Below, in pieces: positions 11,801 to 21,705 of a stretch of 32,064 nucleotides of DNA. The stretch is taken from positions 1 to 32,064 of the forward strand of contig NZ_JAEUMN010000123.1 of NCBI RefSeq assembly GCF_016793225.1, in the 5' to 3' direction. Within the stretch, counting starts at the first letter, position 1. Each line of letters opens with the position of its first letter. The notes under the pieces are model-generated. The model did no database searches. It was not told the DNA's origin and saw nothing but the letters and a program-made list of their open reading frames with translations. The position numbers were made by a program, and so were the translations under genes. This DNA is from Phenylobacterium sp. (GTDB lineage Bacteria; Pseudomonadota; Alphaproteobacteria; Caulobacterales; Caulobacteraceae).

Positions 11801-12505
11801 GTGACCGACAGGCCCACCATCGACCGGGAGTTCGCCGAGAAGTTCCTGAAGTCCGCCGACACGCCGCTCGACTACGGGGTCTACTTCCTGTTCCACGAGT
11901 GGTGGGAAAAGGCGCCGCAGAAGGCCATCGACGCCTACAGCCGCGAACTCGCCTCGATCCCCGAGGCCGCCCCCTTCATCGCCCAGCGGTTCATTTCCGA
12001 ACCGTTGTCGCTGGAACGGCTGGCGCAGTGCGCGCCGGGAACCCTGGGGCACGCCTACCGGCGCTTCATCCTCGACAACAAGCTGGAGCAGAACCTCGGC
12101 CGGAACTACCGCCGGTTCAACGAGGAGCTGACGGCGTCCGGCAAGCTGGATCGCCTGCCGCCGGACCTCAGCTACATGATGGTCCGGGGCTTCCAGATCC
12201 ACGACTTCCTGCACGTGCTCACCGGCTACGAGGCGACGCCCCGCGGCGAGCTGGCGCTCGCGGCCTTCTATCTCGCTCAGCTGCGGTTCCCGTACCACGC
12301 GATGCGGGTGGCGGTGACGGCGGCGCACATGGCCTTCCTGCGGCCGGGCCTGATCGTGGAGGCCATGGACGCCTTCGTGGACGGGTGGGCCTATGGCCGG
12401 GTGGCGAGGAACCTGAACTTCGAGCGCTGGGAGGACGAGCTGGACACGCCGCTCGAAACGCTGCGCGCCCGAATGGGCTTGAACCGGACGAGCCTGGCCG
12501 CATAA
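11801..12505 (+). CDS. Coq4 family protein (ubiquinone-biosynthesis type)
   Basis: Protein of 234 aa beginning at GTG 11801 after AAGGGGAG. The Coq4 metal-site signature HDxxH-x11-E is exact: His134-Asp135-x2-His138 and Glu150 in IHDFLHVLTGYEATPRGE. Eukaryotic Coq4 is a zinc/lipid-binding protein that takes part in ring decarboxylation and hydroxylation of the ubiquinone precursor; bacterial homologues are mostly uncharacterised and need not act in ubiquinone synthesis. The rest is helical, including YLAQLRFPYHAMRVAVTAAHMAFL. The gene is followed after 7 nt by a TetR regulator and preceded by a strong palindrome, so it is probably induced by a ligand. Confidence 0.88.
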   Translation: MTDRPTIDREFAEKFLKSADTPLDYGVYFLFHEWWEKAPQKAIDAYSRELASIPEAAPFIAQRFISEPLSLERLAQCAPGTLGHAYRRFILDNKLEQNLGRNYRRFNEELTASGKLDRLPPDLSYMMVRGFQIHDFLHVLTGYEATPRGELALAAFYLAQLRFPYHAMRVAVTAAHMAFLRPGLIVEAMDAFVDGWAYGRVARNLNFERWEDELDTPLETLRARMGLNRTSLAA

Positions 12506-12512
12506 GGGCGCA

Positions 12513-13118
12513 ATGCCCCGCACGCCCGCCACCGAAGCGCAGCGCGACGCCGCCCGGCGTCATCTGCAGAAGGCGGCGGCGGGCCTTTACGCCGAACTCG
12601 GGGCGACCGGCGTCTCGGCGCGCGCGGTGGCCGAGCGCGCCAACGTCAGCGTCGGCACCATCTACTCCTACTTCGGCAGTCTCCAGGGGCTGATGCAGTC
12701 CCTGTGGATGCAGCCCCTGGAGGGGATCAACGCCCGTTTCGAGCAGGTAGCCGCCGCGGTTCCCGAGCCGCTGCCCAGGCTGCGCGCTCTGCTCGAGGCC
12801 TACGTCGACGTGGCGCGGGCGCGGCCCGAGCTGTACCGTGGCGCCTTCCTGTTCGTTCGGCCCGCGGCCCTGCCGACGCCGGAGCGGGGGCCGCTGGAGA
12901 CCGCGGTTTTCCCCTCGCTGCTCGTCGCCGCCATCCGCGATGGACAGGCCCAGGGCGCCATGCGCGAGGGCGACCCGGTCCGGCTGGCGCAGCTCGCCTG
13001 GGCCGGCGTGCACGGCGCCTTGGCCCTGCCGGTGAACTTCGACCGCCTGCAGCTGGACGCGACGGGATGTCTCGCCGGGGACATGGTAGGCCTCGTCGTC
13101 GACGGGTTGGCGAGCTAG
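12513..13118 (+). CDS. TetR/AcrR family transcriptional regulator
   Basis: Protein of 201 aa. The N-terminal HTH (about 13-60) reads LQKAAAGLYAELGATGVSARAVAERANVSVGTIYSYFGS, the canonical TetR DNA-binding domain with VGTIYSYFGS as the recognition helix. The remainder is the helical ligand-binding/dimer domain with a C-terminal WAGVHGALALPVNF segment common to TetR_C-type domains. It starts 7 nt after the Coq4 stop and is probably co-transcribed and autoregulated through the palindrome at 11731. The ligand is unknown; a hydrophobic or quinone-like effector would fit Coq4, but that is inference. Confidence 0.93.
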   Translation: MPRTPATEAQRDAARRHLQKAAAGLYAELGATGVSARAVAERANVSVGTIYSYFGSLQGLMQSLWMQPLEGINARFEQVAAAVPEPLPRLRALLEAYVDVARARPELYRGAFLFVRPAALPTPERGPLETAVFPSLLVAAIRDGQAQGAMREGDPVRLAQLAWAGVHGALALPVNFDRLQLDATGCLAGDMVGLVVDGLAS

Positions 13119-13189
13119 ACGCCACGGCGCCCTTGCGCCCGGCGGCGTCCTGCTGACAGGCTCGCGGCAAAACGAGACGGGGAGACGCC

Positions 13190-14050
13190 ATGCTGAGCTG
13201 GCAAGTGGGGGCGGTGAAGATCACGCGGGTGGTCGAGGTGCAGATGCCGATCGCCTACAGCCCGGACACCGTCTTCCTGAAGGAAGCGACGCCGGCCGAG
13301 CTGCGCAAGCTGCCCTGGCTCTATCCGCACTTCGTGAGCGAGAACGACGAGCTGCTGCTCTCGATCCATGCCCTGCTCGTGGAGGCGCCGGGCCTGCGCC
13401 TCGTGGTCGACACCTGCATCGGCAACGACAAGCCGCGCGCCGGCATGACCGGGCCGGGCGGCCTGCAGACGAAGTTCCTGGAGGCGATGGCCGAGGCGGG
13501 CTGGAGCCCCGACAGCGTCGACGCCGTCGTCTGCACCCACATGCACGTGGACCACGTCGGCTGGAACACCATGCGCGTCGACGGCGCCTGGGTGCCGACC
13601 TTCCCCAAGGCGCGCTACCTGCTCGGACGCGCCGAGTTCGACCACTGGACCGCGGAGGGCGACGCCGAGCAGCAGCAGATCATGGCCGACTCCGTCCAGC
13701 CCGTGCTCGACGCCGGCCTCGTGGATTTCGTCCCCCTCGACCACGTGATCTCGCCGGAGATCCGGCTGACGCCCAGCGTCGGCCATACCCCCGGCCACGT
13801 GTCCGTGGTGATCGAGTCGCAGGGCGAGCGGGCGGTGATCACCGGCGACATGACCCATCACCCCTGCCAGTTCGCGCATCCGCACTGGTGCCCGTCGTTC
13901 GACGTCGACCCCGCCGCGGCGACCGCGACCCGCCGGCGGCTGTTCGCCGAATGGGCCGACGACCCGACGCTGGTCATCGGCACGCACTACGCCGACCCTA
14001 CCGCCGGCCGCGTGCGTCGCGACGGCGCGGCTTTCCGCTTCGAAGCCTAG
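13190..14050 (+). CDS. MBL-fold metallo-hydrolase
   Basis: Protein of 286 aa. Metallo-beta-lactamase-fold metal ligands are all present: His117, His119, Asp121 and His122 in CTHMHVDHVGW, the GHTPGH pair at 199-203, Asp220 in ITGDMTHH and His266 in VIGTHYADP. The N-terminal part LSWQVGAVKITRVVE and the later FPKARYLLGRAEFDHW fit the hydrolase subgroup that contains lactonase-like and organophosphate-like enzymes; the substrate cannot be fixed. No signal peptide is present. It lies 71 bp after the TetR gene and 9 bp before the histidine phosphatase, so it is likely co-transcribed with the latter. Confidence 0.92.
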   Translation: MLSWQVGAVKITRVVEVQMPIAYSPDTVFLKEATPAELRKLPWLYPHFVSENDELLLSIHALLVEAPGLRLVVDTCIGNDKPRAGMTGPGGLQTKFLEAMAEAGWSPDSVDAVVCTHMHVDHVGWNTMRVDGAWVPTFPKARYLLGRAEFDHWTAEGDAEQQQIMADSVQPVLDAGLVDFVPLDHVISPEIRLTPSVGHTPGHVSVVIESQGERAVITGDMTHHPCQFAHPHWCPSFDVDPAAATATRRRLFAEWADDPTLVIGTHYADPTAGRVRRDGAAFRFEA

Positions 14051-14059
14051 GCGCCCCGA

Positions 14060-14635
14060 ATGGAACTGATCCTCATCCGCCACGGGCTGCCCGAGCGCCG
14101 CGACGACACCTCGGACCCGCCCCTCAGCGCGGAAGGCCATCGCCAGGCCCGGCGCGTGGCGGACTGGCTCCGGCACGAGCCCATCCACGCCGTCTATTCC
14201 TCGACGATGCTGCGGGCCCGCCAGACGGCGGAGCCGTTCGCCGGACACCTGGGCCACGAGATCGACTGCCACGACGGCATCTGCGAGTTCGACCGCCACA
14301 CCGGCGCCTACGTGCCCATGGAAGTGCTCAAGCGCGAGAACTACGAAGCCTGGCTCCGCATGGCGACGGGCGAGCACTCGGTCGACATCGCGGCGTTCCA
14401 GCGGCCCGTCGTCGAGACGCTGGAGGCGATCATCGAGGCCAACCAGGGCCGCCGCGTGGCCGTCTTCTGCCACGGCGGGGTGATCAACGTCTGGACGGCG
14501 CACGTGCTGGGGATGGCCCCGCGGCTCTTCTTCGAGCCGGACTACACCTCGATCCACCGCTTCATGTGCGCCCGCACCGGCCAGCGCAACGTGCTCAGCC
14601 TCAACGAGCGGGCCCACCTGCGCGAGCCGGGCTAG
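14060..14635 (+). CDS. Histidine phosphatase family protein
   Basis: Protein of 191 aa of the phosphoglycerate-mutase-like branch. The nucleophilic His8 lies in LILIRHGLPERR. Arg52-type residues follow in SSTMLRARQTAEPFA, an acidic CEFDRH provides the general acid, and the second catalytic His138 is in VAVFCHGGVIN. These enzymes dephosphorylate small molecules or phosphoproteins through a phosphohistidine intermediate; the substrate is unknown. It begins 9 nt after the MBL stop. It converges on the radical SAM gene, with six bases between stops and no visible terminator. Confidence 0.93.
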   Translation: MELILIRHGLPERRDDTSDPPLSAEGHRQARRVADWLRHEPIHAVYSSTMLRARQTAEPFAGHLGHEIDCHDGICEFDRHTGAYVPMEVLKRENYEAWLRMATGEHSVDIAAFQRPVVETLEAIIEANQGRRVAVFCHGGVINVWTAHVLGMAPRLFFEPDYTSIHRFMCARTGQRNVLSLNERAHLREPG

Positions 14636-14641
14636 ACGGGC

Positions 14642-16261
14642 TCACGCCGCCGCCTCCAGCGCCTCCAGCAGGACCGCCTGGTTGCGGGCCACGAAGGCGT
14701 CGCGCTCGCGGATCACCGCCGCCAGGGTCGCGTCGCACAGGTCGCGAAGCGCCGCCGGATCGGGCGCCCGGCCCACGCCGTGCTCGTGCAGGTCGGCCAG
14801 CGCCTCGACGATCTGGAAGAGCTCGGCGTTGCTGCGTGCGGTCAGCGCCTTCAGCGTGGCCTCGTACGCGTCGGTGTCGGGGAGGGCGGGGAACAGGCGC
14901 CGCACCACGGCCACCTCCAGATGGGCCCACGAGAGCTGCATGGTCAGCGCCCGCGGCCCGTGCACCCAACCCGTCACCTCCACGATGCGCGCCAGGTCGG
15001 CGTAGAAGGCGTCCAGGCGGGGATCCAGGAAGTCGTAGTCGGGCGTGCAGACGTCGCCCTTCAGCCGGCCCGCCGCCTCCAGCGTCGCCTTGATGGGCGT
15101 GCCGTCGTAGGGAAGCATCTTGCAGAAGGTCGCCGGCGAGCAGCCGTCACCCACGATCTCGCGCAGGAAGGCGAGGTTCGCCCGCACCGAGCGGAAGGTG
15201 CTGGACGGATCCAGCAGCATGAAGCCGTACTCGAAGCGGATCCCCAGGTCCTTCAGCATCCGGACCGCCGCGAGGTTCTGCTCGACGGTGATCTCCTTGT
15301 TGAGGGTCACCAGGCCGTCCTCGTCGCCGGACTCCAGGCCCATGTAGACCAGGTACAGGCCCGCATCGCGCATCCGCGACAGCAGGTGGGCGTCCACGGC
15401 ATCGGCCCGGCAGTTGAGCTTGAAGATCACCTTCCGCGAGAGGCCGCTCTCGATCAGCCTGTCGACGAGATCGTGCGCCCAGGCCCGCCACTTGGGCCCG
15501 AACATCGGGAAGTCGTCGTCCTGGAACAGGAAGACCGTGACCCCGCGGGTCTCGTACAGCTCGGCCATCTCGCGGACGACCTCGTGGGTCTTGCGCAGCC
15601 GCACCACCTTGCCCGGCGCGGTCCGGTAGAAGGTGTGGATCGAGCAGAACGAGCAGGTGCGCGCGCAGCCCCGGCTGGCCAGGATCGGCATGCCCTGGCG
15701 TCCCAGGATCTCGGTCGGCGCGAAGTCGCGGTCGGGGAAGGGCAGGGCGTCGAGGTCGTGGACCAGGTGGCGGGGCGGGTTGGCCTGCACGCCGTCCGGC
15801 GTCCGGTAGACCAGGCCGTCCAGGGCGCGCCAGTCGCCGCCGTCCCGCAGGGTCTCCACCAGCGCCAGCAGGGTCTCCTCGCCCTCGAAGCGGACGACGC
15901 TGTCGAGGTCGGGGGCAGCCTTCAGCGTCTGCTCGGGACTGAGGCTGGGATAGTGCCCGCCCATGGTGAAGTGGGCGTCCACCCCTGCGCGCCGCAGGCT
16001 GAACATGAGGTCGTCGTAGCGGCGGATGTAGTACTGGAAGATCAGCGAGAACCCGACCAGCAGCGGCCTGGCGTCGGCGACGGCGCGCACGATCGCCTCG
16101 GGGGGCTGTTCGATGTCGATGACCCGGACATCCCAGCCTGCGCGGCGCAGCACCGCCGACAGGTAGCCCAGGCCGAGGTTGCCCATCTTCTGGAAGCCGA
16201 TCAGCGCAACGACGCCGCGCGCATCGGCGACCGGCGCGGAAGCGCGGTCGATCGCAGGCAT
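14642..16261 (-). CDS. B12-binding domain radical SAM protein
   Basis: Protein of 539 aa. Residues 15-135 are a cobalamin-binding Rossmann-like domain (GFQKMGNLGLGYLSAVLRRAGW, then MGGHYPSLSPE) without the DxHxxG lower-ligand motif, as usual in B12 radical SAM enzymes. Residues 185-400 are the radical SAM barrel with the 4Fe-4S cluster motif C199-x3-C203-x2-C206 (SRGCARTCSFC) and GLESGDE. About 130 C-terminal residues are a helical extension of unknown role. Such enzymes often methylate unactivated carbons or rearrange peptides, lipids or cofactors. CAGGAG lies before the ATG. A 68-aa peptide gene sits 58 nt upstream in the same orientation, suggesting a peptide substrate or partner. Substrate unknown. 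Confidence 0.92.
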   Translation of the reverse strand: MPAIDRASAPVADARGVVALIGFQKMGNLGLGYLSAVLRRAGWDVRVIDIEQPPEAIVRAVADARPLLVGFSLIFQYYIRRYDDLMFSLRRAGVDAHFTMGGHYPSLSPEQTLKAAPDLDSVVRFEGEETLLALVETLRDGGDWRALDGLVYRTPDGVQANPPRHLVHDLDALPFPDRDFAPTEILGRQGMPILASRGCARTCSFCSIHTFYRTAPGKVVRLRKTHEVVREMAELYETRGVTVFLFQDDDFPMFGPKWRAWAHDLVDRLIESGLSRKVIFKLNCRADAVDAHLLSRMRDAGLYLVYMGLESGDEDGLVTLNKEITVEQNLAAVRMLKDLGIRFEYGFMLLDPSSTFRSVRANLAFLREIVGDGCSPATFCKMLPYDGTPIKATLEAAGRLKGDVCTPDYDFLDPRLDAFYADLARIVEVTGWVHGPRALTMQLSWAHLEVAVVRRLFPALPDTDAYEATLKALTARSNAELFQIVEALADLHEHGVGRAPDPAALRDLCDATLAAVIRERDAFVARNQAVLLEALEAAA

Positions 16262-16286
16262 TACGGAACTCCTGGCTTGAGGCGGG

Positions 16287-16308
16287 GGCGGCGGCCGGAA
16301 CCGCCGCC
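16287..16308 (-). promoter_or_regulatory. GC hairpin between peptide gene and radical SAM gene
   Basis: Arms GGCGGCGG and CCGCCGCC (all G-C, 8 bp) with a 6-nt loop lie between the two minus-strand genes. It has no U-run. It could attenuate transcription or protect the upstream mRNA so that the peptide is made in excess of the enzyme. Confidence 0.5.
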
Positions 16309-16319
16309 AGGTCGACGGG

Positions 16320-16526
16320 TCAGCGCCCGACGCCGATCGCCTTCTGCACCGCGTCGACAGCCTTCAGCTGCGCCCGGAGCATGTCCTCGTGCAGCTGGAC
16401 CTGGACCTTCGCGATCTCGAGGATCTGCCGCTTGTCGAGGATGTCGATCAGATAGGGCCAGGGCACCGGGTCGGCGTGCGGCCAGGGCCGGAATTCCAGG
16501 CGCGAGAGGCGTTCGGCGTCAGCCAT
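16320..16526 (-). CDS. 68-aa peptide, possible radical SAM substrate or partner
   Basis: Starts at ATG 16526 with AAGGAA 8 nt upstream. No Cys and no signal peptide. Residues 13-25 are an unusual Pro/Trp-rich stretch (RPWPHADPVPWPY; Trp15 and Trp23). Residues 27-65 look like one amphipathic helix (IDILDKRQILEIAK, then VQLHEDMLRAQLKAVDAVQKAI). It ends GVGR. I do not recognise the family. The position directly before a B12 radical SAM gene, with a hairpin between them, is what a ribosomally made peptide precursor would show. A small accessory subunit is the main alternative. Coding is supported by the ribosome site and ordered composition. Confidence 0.72.
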   Translation of the reverse strand: MADAERLSRLEFRPWPHADPVPWPYLIDILDKRQILEIAKVQVQLHEDMLRAQLKAVDAVQKAIGVGR

Positions 16527-16566
16527 GGATCAGTTCCTTCTCTGCGAGGCCCCCGACCACCCCTAG

Positions 16567-16578
16567 GTTGTCAACAAC
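16567..16578. promoter_or_regulatory. Small inverted repeat in AT-rich divergent promoter region
   Basis: GTTGT and ACAAC arms around CA lie in the only AT-rich part of the 220-bp region between the divergent peptide gene (start 16526) and caspase-like gene (start 16747). It may be an operator. Clear -35/-10 pairs were not found. Confidence 0.35.
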
Positions 16579-16746
16579 TCTACTTTAAATCGCACTTTCG
16601 CCCCACCTGCGAGCCCAACGAGCGATGTTCACGGATCGTTGATCTGAAGCGCCCGCGGTCTCGGGGGCCTTGCTCGGGCGCACGAGCCAGCGTCCCTCGG
16701 CATCCGACTTACGTAGCTGACACAACCCTGTTATCGATCCGGGGGC

Positions 16747-18900
16747 ATGCGAAGGGTGCGGCGCGTGGGCGGGACGGCGCGGATCCTGGGACGGAAGAGG
16801 CTGGCGTGGGCCCTGGCGCTTGCGTTCGCCGGCGCCGGCGAGGCCGCCGCGGCCACGCGGCCTGCCGAGAGCCTCCTGATCGTCGATTGCCTGCTTCCGG
16901 GAAAGGTGCAGAGGCTCGGGACCCAGGCCACCTATGTGACGCAGCGGCGCGCGGTGAAGACCACCGCCGGGGACTGCGCCGTCCGGGGCGGGGAGTACAC
17001 GGCGTTCGATCGCGCGACCACGGCGGCGTCGATGAACGTCTGGCTGCCCGCAGCTCGAGCCGGTGATCCCGAGGCGCAAACCAACGTCGGCGAGATCCTG
17101 GAGAAGGGCGTCGGCGGACAGGCGCAGCCCGATCTGGCGCGCCAATGGTACGAGCTCGCCGCCGAGCAGGGCTACGCTCGCGCTCAGATCAACCTCGGGT
17201 CCCTCTACGAGCGGGGCGTGGGTGTTCCGCGCGACGTGGCGAAGGCGCTGGAATGGTATCGCCGCGCGTCCGGCCTCGACGCGGCGAGCCTGTCGTTCGC
17301 GCCGGGCGAGGAGGTGGAGGGGCTGCGGCGCGAGCGTGACGCGCTCGCCGGGCTCCTGGAGGCGGAGCGGGCCGAGCGCGGGCGCCTGCAGCAGGATCTC
17401 GATGCGGTGCGCCAGCGCCTGGAGCGGGATCGCTCGGTGTTGGGGGAGACCGAGCGCAGGCTGGCTGACGCCCAACGCGAGCTTGCCGCGCGGACGGCGG
17501 CGGTCGAGGTCGAGACGCGGCGGGCCGGCACGGCGGTGACGGCGCAGCAGAGCGCCAGCGCCGAGCTCGCCGCCATGCGACGCGAGATGGAGGCCCAGAG
17601 GCAGGTCGTCGAGGCCCGCAATGCAGAGCTGGCCCGGGCCCGGGCCTCGGTGGCCGAGCTGGAGGCGCGGTCGCGGACCCTCCAGACAGACCTCGCGGCC
17701 GCCGAGGCCCGCCGCGCCACTGACGTCGCAGGCGCGCTGTCGCAGGCCGAGGCCGCGCGACGCCAGCTGGGCGAACTCGGCGCGCGCCTGAAGGCGGCCG
17801 AAGGCGAGCTGGGCCGCAGCCTGGAGGCGATGTCCGCGCAGCGCGCCGAGGTGGAGCGGCTACGGGCAGCGCTGGACGACAGCCGGGGGCGGACCCAGTC
17901 CGGCGACGGACGGCGGGCCGAACTCGAGGCGCAACTGGCGGCCCGCGAGGCGGAGCTCGCCGAGTCGCGTGAGCGCCTGGGGACGCTCAACGGTGAAGTG
18001 GCCCGGCTCGAGAAGGAGGCCTCGGTGCTGCGCGAGTCGGCCCGACGGGCGGAAGCGGCGCGCGAGGAAGCGGCGAGGCTGGCGGCCGCGACGGAGCAGA
18101 AGCCTGTCGCCGTACGGACCGCCCAGCCGGGGGTGATCAGGCCGCCGCCGGATTTCAGCTTCGGCCGCTACCACGCCCTGATCATCGGCAACAACAGCTA
18201 CCGTCACCTCGAGCGGCTGGAGACCGCCGTCAACGACGCCCGCGCCGTCGACGACGTGCTGCGCCGCCGCTACGGCTTCAAGACCACGCTGCTGCTGAAC
18301 GCCGACCGGTACCAGCTGCTCTCCGCGCTCAACAAGCTGCGCGAGGAGCTCACCGCGCAGGACAACCTTCTCATCTACTACGCCGGGCACGGCGAACTCG
18401 ACCGGGTGAACAACCGCGGCTACTGGCTGCCCGTCGACGCGGAACTCAATTCCACCGCCAACTGGATCTCGTCGATCCAGATCACCGATGTCCTCAACGC
18501 CATGACGGCCAAGCAGGTGCTGCTGGTGGCCGACAGCTGCTACTCGGGCGTGCTCACCCGCGCCTCCATGGCCCGGCTGGAGGCGGGCCTGACCGAGGAG
18601 GAGCGCATGCGCTGGCTCAAGGCCATGGCCACGAAACGGGCGCGCGTGGTTCTGACCTCGGGCGGGGTGCAGCCGGTGCTGGACGGCGGTGGGGGCGAAC
18701 ACTCGGTCTTCGCCGCGGCGTTCCTGGCGGCGCTGGAGGCCAATCAGGGCGTGATGGAGAGCCAGCGCCTGGCCCAGAGGGTCGTGCAGCAGGTGACCAC
18801 CTCGGCCGCCGGGGCCAGCATCGACCAGATCCCAGTCTACGCGCCGATCCGCTTTGCCGGACATGAAGCCGGGGACTTCTTTTTCGTGACGAAGAACTGA
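16747..18900 (+). CDS. Secreted caspase-like protease with Sel1 repeats and coiled coil
   Basis: Protein of 717 aa. Residues 1-37 form a long basic then hydrophobic signal peptide. Residues about 97-176 hold Sel1-like repeats (AARAGDPEAQTNVGEILEKGVGG, AAEQGYARAQINLGSLYERGVGV). Residues about 188-440 are an Ala/Glu/Arg-rich coiled coil. Residues about 470-715 are a Peptidase_C14 caspase domain: RYHALIIGNNSYRHL, catalytic His548 in IYYAGHGE and Cys598 in VADSCYSGV. Both catalytic residues are present. Caspase-like enzymes cut after basic or acidic residues; the target is unknown. It is expected in the periplasm. It ends 10 nt before a beta-barrel gene with GGAGGGG between, so the pair is an operon. 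Confidence 0.92.
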   Translation: MRRVRRVGGTARILGRKRLAWALALAFAGAGEAAAATRPAESLLIVDCLLPGKVQRLGTQATYVTQRRAVKTTAGDCAVRGGEYTAFDRATTAASMNVWLPAARAGDPEAQTNVGEILEKGVGGQAQPDLARQWYELAAEQGYARAQINLGSLYERGVGVPRDVAKALEWYRRASGLDAASLSFAPGEEVEGLRRERDALAGLLEAERAERGRLQQDLDAVRQRLERDRSVLGETERRLADAQRELAARTAAVEVETRRAGTAVTAQQSASAELAAMRREMEAQRQVVEARNAELARARASVAELEARSRTLQTDLAAAEARRATDVAGALSQAEAARRQLGELGARLKAAEGELGRSLEAMSAQRAEVERLRAALDDSRGRTQSGDGRRAELEAQLAAREAELAESRERLGTLNGEVARLEKEASVLRESARRAEAAREEAARLAAATEQKPVAVRTAQPGVIRPPPDFSFGRYHALIIGNNSYRHLERLETAVNDARAVDDVLRRRYGFKTTLLLNADRYQLLSALNKLREELTAQDNLLIYYAGHGELDRVNNRGYWLPVDAELNSTANWISSIQITDVLNAMTAKQVLLVADSCYSGVLTRASMARLEAGLTEEERMRWLKAMATKRARVVLTSGGVQPVLDGGGGEHSVFAAAFLAALEANQGVMESQRLAQRVVQQVTTSAAGASIDQIPVYAPIRFAGHEAGDFFFVTKN

Positions 18901-18910
18901 GGAGGGGAGC

Positions 18911-20143
18911 ATGGTCATGCGGATGATGCGTCGGGCGGCCACGGCCCTCGTGGCGCTGGGGGGCCTTGGCGGCGGCGCCGCCCACGCCCAATCGGCGGGG
19001 AACGCGGCCTATCAGACCTATTTCCTGCAGGCCTGCACGGGCGCCACCGGCGCGCTTGCGAGCCTCTGCGCCGCCTCGCGCGGCGGGCAGCTTTCCGGGG
19101 ACAGCGAGTCCTCCTTGAACCCGAACCAGACGTCGGTGCTGGCCTCGACATCGCTGGCGCGCGCGCAGGCGCTGGCCGAAGCCACCGAGCGGCGGCTGGA
19201 GGGCGTCCGCGCCGGGGACAGCGACGCGAAGGCCGAAGGCGGCTTCGGCTTCTTCGGCAGCGTGCAGGGCGAATGGTCCGACCAGGATCGCGGGCCGTTC
19301 GACAACGAGCGCGGGTTCGATGCGGACGCCTGGCGCATCACCGCCGGCGTCGACTGGCGGCTCTCGCCCAACACGATCGTCGGCCTTTCGGCGACCTACA
19401 GCGACTACGGCTCGGACTTCGACGCGAACCGGCCGGGCAATGCGTTCACGCCCCAGGCCGACGCCGGCGGCATCGACACCGAGCAGGTGACAATCCTGGC
19501 GTTCGGCTCGACCTCGCTATCGGATGCGGTCTGGCTGGACGCCTCGGCCGGCGTCGGGTTCGCGGACCACCGGATCCGGCGCAACGCGACGTTCCAGGAA
19601 AGCAACCGCCTGATCCCGCAGACCAACGTCCGGGCCGTGGGGTCGCCGGATGGGCGCGAGTACCACGCGGCGGTCGGCCTCGGGTATGACGGCCAGATGG
19701 GCCCGCTCAGCCTCGGGCCGTACGCGCGGCTGCGCTACATCCGCACGAAGATCGACGCCTACACCGAGCGCGACGGCGGCGTCGGCCTGGCGCTGAACGT
19801 TTCCCGGGCACGGTCGACGTCGTTCACGTCGATCCTCGGCGCGCGGGCCTCCTATGCGATCGGCGCAAGCTGGGGCGTCGTCGTCCCGCAGGCGCGCGTC
19901 GAGTTCGAACACGAGTTCGACGACGACGCCCGCACCGCGACGACGCGCCTCGCGCTCGATCCGGCCAGGACGCCGTTCCGCCTGAGCAACGACGCCCCGG
20001 ATCGCAATGCGTTCAACTTGGGCGCCAGCCTCCTCTTCGTCCTGCCGAACGGCTTCGCGCCGTACGTCGACTACGAAGGACAGGTGGGCTACCGCGACGC
20101 GTCGCGGCACCGCGTGAGCGCCGGGTTCCGGTCGCGGTTCTGA
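18911..20143 (+). CDS. Autotransporter-type outer-membrane beta-barrel protein
   Basis: Protein of 410 aa; ATG 18917 is a possible second start. Signal peptide to about residue 27 (ending AHAQ). Residues 28-105 have two Cys and a Gly/Ser-rich then helical segment (ASTSLARAQALAEATERRLE) that could sit inside a barrel. From about residue 110 come alternating beta strands (GFFGSVQGEWSDQDRG, WRITAGVDWRLSPNTIVGLSATYSDYG and later YARLRYIRTKIDAY). The protein ends in RSRF, the C-terminal aromatic signature of outer-membrane barrels. There is no large passenger. It is co-transcribed with the caspase-like gene, which could be the periplasmic partner. Confidence 0.87.
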   Translation: MVMRMMRRAATALVALGGLGGGAAHAQSAGNAAYQTYFLQACTGATGALASLCAASRGGQLSGDSESSLNPNQTSVLASTSLARAQALAEATERRLEGVRAGDSDAKAEGGFGFFGSVQGEWSDQDRGPFDNERGFDADAWRITAGVDWRLSPNTIVGLSATYSDYGSDFDANRPGNAFTPQADAGGIDTEQVTILAFGSTSLSDAVWLDASAGVGFADHRIRRNATFQESNRLIPQTNVRAVGSPDGREYHAAVGLGYDGQMGPLSLGPYARLRYIRTKIDAYTERDGGVGLALNVSRARSTSFTSILGARASYAIGASWGVVVPQARVEFEHEFDDDARTATTRLALDPARTPFRLSNDAPDRNAFNLGASLLFVLPNGFAPYVDYEGQVGYRDASRHRVSAGFRSRF

Positions 20144-20159
20144 CCGCGGACCAGGCACG

Positions 20160-20188
20160 CTGACAACTTAGCGGTGTTCAGTTATACC
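20160..20188 (+). promoter_or_regulatory. Probable housekeeping promoter for the monooxygenase
   Basis: CTGACA at 20160-20165 and TATACC at 20183-20188 are 17 nt apart, a good sigma-70-like pair about 30 bp before the start codon. The segment also forms an imperfect inverted repeat (CTGACAAC and GTGTTCAG), possibly a repressor site. Confidence 0.5.
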
Positions 20189-20217
20189 CGCGTCCCGATC
20201 GGTGGCGGCAGGCGGAC

Positions 20218-21705
20218 ATGGTTGAACACTTCGACGTTGTGATCGTGGGCGCAGGGCTGTCCGGCGTCGGCGCCGGCTATCACCTGCAGACGGCGTGCCC
20301 CGACCGCAGCTACGTGATCCTGGAAGGCCGCGAGGCGATCGGGGGCACCTGGGACATCTTCCGCTACCCGGGCATCCGGTCGGATTCCGACATGTATACC
20401 CTGGGCTATGCCTTCAAGCCGTGGACCGAGGCGAAGGCGATCGCGGACGGTCCGTCGATCCTGAGGTATGTCCGCCAGACCGCCGCCGAGAACGGCATCG
20501 ACCGCAAGATCCGCTTCGGCCACCAGGTGAAGCGCGCCGCGTGGTCAACCGAGGACGCCTGCTGGACGGTGGAGGCCGAGGTCGCGGGGACCGTGAAGCG
20601 GTTCACCTGCGGCTTCCTGTTCCTCTGCGGCGGCTACTACTCCTACGAGGGTGGCTACACGCCCGAGTGGCCCGGCGCGGACCGGTACAGGGGAACCTTC
20701 GTCCATCCGCAGAAGTGGCCCGAGGGCCTCGACTACGCCGGCAAGCGCGTGGTGGTGATCGGCTCCGGCGCCACGGCCGTGACCCTCGTCCCCGAGATGG
20801 CGCGCACCGCGGGCCACGTGACCATGCTGCAGCGCTCGCCCACCTATGTGGTGAGCCGCCCGGCCGAGGATGCGATGGCGAACTGGCTGCGCCGTCGGCT
20901 GCCCGGCAAGCTCGCCTACGACATCGTGCGCTGGCGCAACGTCCTGTTCGGCATGTGGTTCTTCAACCTTGCGCGCCGGAAGCCCGCGCAGGTGAAGGCC
21001 AACATCATCAAGATGGTGCGCGAACAGCTCGGGCCGGACTACGACGTCGACCGCCATTTCACGCCCACCTACAACCCCTGGGACCAGCGGCTCTGCCTGG
21101 TTCCGGACGCCGACATGTTCCGCGAGATCAAGGCCGGGCGCGCCTCGGTCGTGACCGATCACATCGAGACCTTCACCGAGACCGGCATCCGCCTGAAGTC
21201 CGGCCAGGAGCTGGCGGCCGACATCGTCGTCACGGCGACCGGCCTCGTGCTGGAGGTCTGGAACGGCGTCGAGATCAGCGTCGACGGCCGCCAGGTCGAT
21301 CCGTCCCAGACGCTGGCCTACAAGGGCATGATGTACGAGGGCGTCCCGAACCTCGCCTCGGCGTTCGGCTACACCAACGCCTCGTGGACGCTGAAGTGCG
21401 ACCTGACGTGCGAATACGTCTGCCGCCTGCTCAACCACATGAAGGCGACGGGCCTGCGCCAGGCGACGCCGGTGAACGACGACCCGAGCGTGACCTTCGA
21501 GCCCTGGCTCGATTTCTCGTCCGGCTACGTGCAGCGCGCCATGGCGAAGTTCCCGAAGCAGGGGAACAAGGTCCCCTGGAAGCTGAACCAGAACTACGCC
21601 CTGGACCTGATGAGCCTGCGCTACGCCAAGCTCGAGGACGGCGTCCTGCGCTTCTCCAACCGGGCGCGCCCGGCGCAGGCCTCGACGGAGAAACTCGCCG
21701 CCTGA
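20218..21705 (+). CDS. Flavin-containing monooxygenase, Baeyer-Villiger type
   Basis: Protein of 495 aa. FAD-binding GxGxxG is at residues 11-16 (VIVGAGLSGVGAGYHL) and the NADPH-binding motif is GSGATA at about 182-187. Between them the Baeyer-Villiger fingerprint FxGxxxHxxxWP appears as YRGTFVHPQKWP (157-168), with Tyr in place of Phe. A GGTWDIFRYPGIRSDSDMYTLGY block after the FAD motif is typical of the EthA-like branch. It inserts oxygen into ketones or oxidises S/N substrates; the substrate is unknown. It stands alone with its own promoter and has no regulator beside it. Confidence 0.93.
   Translation: MVEHFDVVIVGAGLSGVGAGYHLQTACPDRSYVILEGREAIGGTWDIFRYPGIRSDSDMYTLGYAFKPWTEAKAIADGPSILRYVRQTAAENGIDRKIRFGHQVKRAAWSTEDACWTVEAEVAGTVKRFTCGFLFLCGGYYSYEGGYTPEWPGADRYRGTFVHPQKWPEGLDYAGKRVVVIGSGATAVTLVPEMARTAGHVTMLQRSPTYVVSRPAEDAMANWLRRRLPGKLAYDIVRWRNVLFGMWFFNLARRKPAQVKANIIKMVREQLGPDYDVDRHFTPTYNPWDQRLCLVPDADMFREIKAGRASVVTDHIETFTETGIRLKSGQELAADIVVTATGLVLEVWNGVEISVDGRQVDPSQTLAYKGMMYEGVPNLASAFGYTNASWTLKCDLTCEYVCRLLNHMKATGLRQATPVNDDPSVTFEPWLDFSSGYVQRAMAKFPKQGNKVPWKLNQNYALDLMSLRYAKLEDGVLRFSNRARPAQASTEKLAA

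Follow-up and report, generated by a model that had tools for sequence, protein, structure and literature searches.

What does a B12-dependent radical SAM enzyme do with a 68-aa peptide whose gene lies directly upstream of its own? The question was raised by one locus in a 32,064-nucleotide contig of Phenylobacterium sp. (NZ_JAEUMN010000123.1, hereafter the window), for which an earlier note had suggested a peptide-modification system. B12 radical SAM enzymes are able to place methyl groups on unactivated carbons; to our knowledge, few of them with ribosomal protein substrates are known. Comparison of the locus with its relatives revealed that the enzyme and its partner, which carries an Asp-Pro-x-Pro (DPxP) motif, look like an undescribed protein-modification system. 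The reading that we favour, with moderate confidence, is that of a two-gene cassette in which the partner is the protein substrate of the enzyme, Asp-Pro is the modified or recognised site and C-methylation is the most likely chemistry. A radical SAM enzyme with a dedicated peptide substrate is a general kind that is already known, and we file the B12/Asp-Pro pair as a new variant of it.

The peptide gene occupies positions 16320 to 16526 of the minus strand (ORF and translation) and the gene of the 539-aa B12-binding/radical SAM enzyme, with its helical C-terminal part (Pfam, alignment and AlphaFold), positions 14642 to 16261 of the same strand. Between the peptide stop and the enzyme start there is a 58-nt gap (16262 to 16319, minus strand), identical in length in the nearest congener (L022), with an AGGAG ribosome-binding-like site 7 nt before the enzyme ATG. 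The peptide ATG is preceded at 8 nt by an SD-like AAGGA, and the upstream, same-strand position and own ribosome site described for the peptide gene in the earlier note were thus confirmed. The peptide frame had GC contents of 0.75/0.36/0.91 by codon position, typical of a gene, and between L022 and the window dN was 0.043 and dS 0.343 in the peptide gene, and 0.057 and 0.411 in the enzyme gene, supporting, through codon composition and purifying selection, that both are real genes; constraint on the peptide was weaker against L023 (dN 0.326, dS 0.647). The peptide contains RPWPHADPVPWPY and runs from an N-terminal LxFRPW segment through ADPVPWP at residues 18-24 to a C-terminal amphipathic helix, as judged from its sequence. 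The codons for residues 17-24 (HADPVPWP), which hold the DPxP motif as seen from translation and motif conservation, lie at 16455 to 16478 of the minus strand. As claimed before, the peptide had no recognised family, with no match in Pfam or NCBIfam.

Convergent with the enzyme gene, an MBL-fold hydrolase (AidB-type lactonase-like, below cut-off) and a histidine phosphatase are encoded at window positions 13190-14635 of the plus strand, and similar genes were found at the same position at one congener locus (L018). On the other side, two genes at 16747-20143 of the plus strand separate the peptide from a flavin monooxygenase. The first encodes a 717-aa caspase-domain protein with Sel1 repeats and a coiled-coil-like central part, the second an autotransporter beta-barrel protein of 410 aa. 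The flavin monooxygenase is directly divergent from the peptide in two congeners (L018 and L019); being common to three Phenylobacterium loci only, it was rejected as a part of the cassette.

The enzyme has the architecture of class B (B12-binding) radical SAM enzymes, with an N-terminal B12-binding domain (PF02310, 79 bits, residues 25-134) and a radical SAM core (PF04055, 63 bits, residues 195-350) that carries CxxxCxxC (C199/C203/C206). The cysteines were invariant in 20/20 aligned members, window included, so the intact CxxxCxxC and cobalamin domain first reported for it stand. Its AlphaFold model (mean pLDDT 90.4, pTM 0.89) contained four long predicted helices from about residue 414 onward, and N478 was invariant in the alignment. 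The 130-residue C-terminal extension that had been called unexplained does exist, in the form of these helices; the model indicates that it is part of the family fold. A Foldseek search with the model placed OxsB, TsrM, MgmA, AprD4, TokK and CysS at the top ranks, and OxsB was the best PDB match by sequence profile (2e-28) as well as by fold. Among the NCBIfam matches listed (the best 25 of 30), the enzyme fell below every equivalog cut-off, with bits/cut-off of 109/650 for HpnR, 117/481 for BchE, 99/578 for HpnJ, 102/750 for ApyD and 85/360 for MgmA. An identity as a lipid/hopanoid enzyme was rejected on this wide margin; membership of a known small-molecule or lipid family, named in the earlier note as a finding that would speak against peptide modification, was not what these cut-offs indicated.

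Weak family-level similarity to HpnR, HpnJ and BchE would nevertheless be compatible with chance neighbours, that is, with a small unrelated gene upstream of a lipid/hopanoid-type enzyme. The distribution of the pair argues strongly against this. In an enzyme tree of 42 rows, 39 formed one clade against three outgroup rows (L080, L082 and L087, out of five outgroup loci), with support of 100/100; the long outgroup branches are possibly misjoined, and L079 and L086 are long rows. A same-strand upstream partner with Asp-Pro before a C-terminal helix was found in 38/39 clade members, which amounts to the RiPP-type arrangement of a peptide gene and a modifying enzyme adjoining as a conserved pair, with the partner as a putative precursor. 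The conserved start motif of the enzyme lay 11-322 nt past the partner stop in 29/29 loci measured. Among named strains, the pair is present in Limobrevibacterium gyesilva (L026) and Litoreibacter roseus (L036). The co-occurrence of peptide homologues and related enzymes, proposed earlier as a check, therefore proved to be the rule in the clade. Because the pairing recurs across several phyla and is congruent with the enzyme tree, and because the cut-offs of the matched NCBIfam families were missed so widely, we regard chance neighbourhood as highly improbable.

The sole clade exception is an enzyme of Flavihumibacter solisilvae (L041:7971-9584, plus strand), which had no DPxP partner at its locus. 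Searching that genome with the repeat, large and short models gave no match at E <= 1, an empty answer that proves little without a positive genome. Next to the enzyme are a weak cytochrome-like match and an FMN-dependent dehydrogenase, with oxidoreductase-like ORFs upstream (named by eye). Seven more distant loci (L050, L056, L080-L083 and L087) had no homologous partner as judged by eye. A first enzyme tree included L050, which the later one omits, and the truncated enzyme of L053 was excluded from the trees while its partner was kept in the motif and spacing counts. L051 (from the assembly of L047) and L090 (enzyme identical to that of L044) were dropped as repeats, as were L013-L021, L054, L076-L078, L084, L088, L089 and L096 as loci already counted.

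The upstream proteins, 66 to 362 aa long overall, fell into three architectures. Short partners (66-82 aa with the chosen starts) carry one motif, as in the window; repeat partners (101-226 aa) have 1-6 motifs and are Pro/Trp/Gly-rich between helical ends; and large partners (283-362 aa) have an unnamed N-terminal domain and mostly GDPSPED ahead of the helix. For several partners the start codon was set by eye, the C-terminal helix after the Asp-Pro motif was likewise judged by eye, and the short, repeat and large labels were assigned by the analyst. None of 11 partners scanned (the window peptide and ten others) reached a Pfam or NCBIfam cut-off. The N-terminal domain of the large partners (L042-L049 and L053) spans about 200 aa and gave no Pfam match in the two tested (L043 and L049). 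The AlphaFold model of a large Nitrospira partner was of low confidence (mean pLDDT 51.6) and was set aside for fold comparison. When the three labels were mapped onto the enzyme tree (38 labelled rows), 3 changes were sufficient, whereas 300 shuffles required at least 13 and on average 17.7, demonstrating that partner architecture follows the enzyme tree and that the two genes are inherited together. Caulobacteraceae members sit in two distant parts of this tree, suggesting that the pair spread horizontally.

We found strict DPxP in 35/38 clade partners (absent from L028, L029 and L086) and DPx(1,2)P in 37/38, the exception being L086, which has DPPR. DPxP was present in 28 of 31 partner proteins, whereas 2000 composition-preserving shuffles gave it in 2.8 on average and never in more than 8. 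As the motif was first noticed while reading loci, the enzymes found afterwards (L055, L079, L085, L086 and L091-L095) give a fairer test: 9/9 had a partner and 8/9 a partner with DPx(1,2)P, these nine being partly related (L091 is 97% identical to L046, and L093 81%/92% identical to L092/L094). Among 56 DPxP occurrences in 34 proteins, the preceding residue was mostly G, A, T, W or V and the middle residue mostly S, V, P, A or G, and Asp was the commonest residue two positions past the second Pro (33/56). The second Pro was missing in L086 (DPPR), L053 (DPAAY) and the majority of the L039 repeat units; L028 and L029 have it at a shifted position. Since L053, L086 and most L039 units keep Asp-Pro without DPxP, Asp-Pro is more constant than the second Pro, and the constant of the whole family is Asp-Pro, usually as DPxP. 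Some partners carry many copies of the motif, with five in L032 and the maximum of six in L034. In L040 and L039 the Asp-Pro unit sits in tandemly repeated DNA, with repeat lengths of 102 and 63 bp, respectively. The motif has thus been multiplied in some relatives.

The bare pattern was also examined as a control. DPx(1,2)P occurred in an upstream same-strand ORF at 3/8 other radical SAM loci of the window genome (L002, L006 and L007), where none of the ORFs resembles the partner by eye, and in upstream ORFs of the outgroup loci L056, L082 and L083, so that alone it is a weak sign. True partners and ORFs with the bare pattern were separated only by homology of the upstream gene, judged by eye. 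In the literature searched with radical SAM terms (full text, mostly without subscription papers, and without work that is on bioRxiv only) we found no DPxP.

An alignment of peptide homologues had been proposed earlier as a way to see which residues are invariant, and a Trp/Pro-rich motif had been singled out in the peptide. That motif is present; its Trp-rich part, however, belongs mainly to the short-peptide clade, in which nine aligned peptides keep Trp after the motif, while Asp-Pro is the constant across the family. These results bear on the reading that the partner is the substrate and Asp-Pro merely a structural cap or recognition element, with the modified residue elsewhere, for example at the Trp of the short clade or in the variable stretch ahead of the motif. 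A DPxPxD that leads into a helix would resemble a helix N-cap, and TsrM, a structural neighbour of the enzyme, methylates Trp, which together with the Trp kept in the nine short peptides would suit such a reading. The residues common to the three architectures, by contrast, are Asp-Pro and its surroundings, and the partners of L036 and L052 lack Trp, for which reason Trp was rejected as a family-wide target. We therefore consider a modified residue outside Asp-Pro to be quite unlikely.

The multiplication of the motif also weighs on the main rival, in which the partner is an accessory subunit or scaffold, DPxP and the helix form a docking surface and the substrate of the enzyme is a small molecule or lipid. 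Expanded repeats and a copy number that varies would suit substrate sites and are hard to square with a fixed subunit, and a length of 66-362 aa is odd for one. Strict pairing with one enzyme family and the short conserved helix would suit a subunit well enough, and several B12 radical SAM relatives have small-molecule substrates (OxsB, related in fold and profile, and the matches below cut-off BchE and HpnR). No other pathway gene indicates a product, a point that could be held in favour of a subunit, whereas the finding that small-molecule pathway genes do not recur around the cassette (33 loci) counts against it. The accessory role had previously been called equally open; with a motif number that varies up to six it has become less likely, and we now hold it to be rather unlikely. 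The core of the idea of a peptide-modifying B12 radical SAM system, in turn, withstood both the test of pairing and that of family identity, while its partners turned out not to be limited to small peptides.

From these comparisons, the enzyme probably modifies the small Asp-Pro-x-Pro partner chemically. We infer that the partner is the substrate, the motif the site and C-methylation the chemistry. The upstream gene would be expressed as a small protein with at least one Asp-Pro(-x-Pro) motif just ahead of its C-terminal helix, and this helix would be the recognition part that positions the motif in the active site of the enzyme. The downstream B12-dependent radical SAM enzyme would then act at or beside Asp-Pro, most likely methylating an unactivated carbon of Asp or Pro with the help of methylcobalamin and a radical derived from SAM. 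Counted against the partner as substrate were the locus without a partner (L041), the lack of any RRE, protease or conserved exporter among the genes scanned, the best match to OxsB and the fact that the bare motif is not rare; the variable second Pro leaves the exact site uncertain. A minimal enzyme-substrate pair with a short defined motif, a 68-aa substrate and natural multi-motif relatives would be easy to test in E. coli. It could lead to a novel residue modification as well as a tool for C-methylation at selected sites, and would assign a function to enzymes and partners that are unnamed in the family libraries searched.

Pairs of a radical SAM enzyme and a target peptide have reportedly been found through co-occurrence, in work of the type of Haft and Basu, mostly for SPASM-type enzymes. 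The discovery logic is the same, in that the enzyme adjoins the peptide; here, in contrast, the enzyme is B12-binding and the Asp-Pro partner occurs in several architectures. OxsB, the closest structure by profile and fold, acts on a small nucleotide substrate and is a longer chain (727-731 residues in the models, compared with 539 aa). The analogy with PoyC, ApyD and MgmA makes C-methylation the most probable chemistry. ApyD (NF050148), which belongs to the aminopyruvatide RiPP pathway, is a B12 radical SAM enzyme that forms beta-methyltyrosine (PMC10635010), and it resembles the window enzyme in joining B12-binding and radical SAM domains and, on our reading, in acting on a ribosomal peptide encoded nearby. 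It differs in having an RRE and in its partner enzymes, an MNIO, a P450 and a methyltransferase (PMC10635010), none of which was found among the ORFs scanned in the window; the window enzyme reaches 102 of the 750 bits of its cut-off. MgmA (TIGR04014, methyl-coenzyme M reductase glutamine C-methyltransferase), likewise a B12 radical SAM enzyme, methylates a Gln residue of a protein and has a cleft that can accommodate an extended peptide (PMC11796369). It is thus a protein-methylating relative with a fold match (TMt 0.71), but its substrate is a large metabolic enzyme and not a dedicated adjacent partner, and the score was 85 of 360 bits. TsrM and PoyC share the B12-binding and radical SAM architecture and come from RiPP pathways, TsrM being among the best fold matches. 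TsrM has a canonical CxxxCxxC and methylates tryptophan at C2, and PoyC methylates valine in a peptide, with an unusual Cx7Cx2C in PoyC-type enzymes instead of the CxxxCxxC found here (PMC5682303).

In the window, none of the seven neighbouring ORFs scanned with Pfam (11801 to 21705) matched a protease, transporter or RRE model, in agreement with the earlier note, and the enzyme itself had no RRE/PqqD match in Pfam. Genes for leader removal or export were not a conserved part of the locus, either next to the window pair or across 33 loci. Beyond the pair, the most widely shared neighbours were ABC-type genes of mixed kinds (6/33 loci), including ATP-binding subunits of mixed kinds at L026, L029, L031 and L040. 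At one Nitrospira locus the large partner and the enzyme adjoin an ABC transporter of type I secretion that matches Peptidase_C39 (L043:4062-6134, minus strand), and at another a homologue of this transporter is accompanied by HlyD and an outer membrane efflux protein (OEP) (L045:967-5873, minus strand). Seen at these two loci only, type I secretion was rejected as a part of the cassette. Since the scans turned up neither an RRE nor a protease or conserved exporter, and modification of the peptide rests on our reading, we make no claim of RiPP membership, and protein modification fits better than a classical RiPP product because of the multi-motif partners and those of 283-362 aa. A bolder possibility, which we hold only tentatively, is a new class of multi-site protein modification, in which Asp-Pro motifs would be altered (for example to C-methylated Asp or Pro) in dedicated, helix-anchored and often repetitive partners. 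On this view the partner would be modified for the sake of its own structural or cellular role rather than to yield a secreted peptide product, and the pair would move between phyla as a unit.

Relatives of the enzyme and the peptide were rare. True matches to the peptide were found in 3 of 119 relatives searched, a fourth (L012, E 0.009) being discarded as chance. The window enzyme, used to search 299 genomes of the family, matched 5 of them at E <= 1e-60, its own genome included. A 20-row enzyme profile at E <= 1e-90 matched 2/385 genomes of the class and, in further genome sets, 8/343, 4/347, 1/176, 7/158 and 1/150, these counts including the genomes on which the searches were centred. In the 343- and 347-genome sets members scored E <= 3e-172, separated from five others at 9e-95 to 3e-105, three of which were placed outside the clade, the other two being without placement. 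A link to defence was rejected, as PADLOC gave one weak match for the enzyme (PDC-M51A, residues 82-368) and none for three partners. So was a link to phage: PHROGs gave no match for the enzyme and four partners, and of 36 pattern matches in viral contigs 0 were confirmed as relatives. A plasmid relative from Sinorhizobium sojae (32.5% identity) was set aside because its locus is of another kind and has no homologous partner. Across 84,980 species genomes a scan gave 32 loci, which span Pseudomonadota, Planctomycetota, Acidobacteriota, Nitrospirota, Bacteroidota and other groups.
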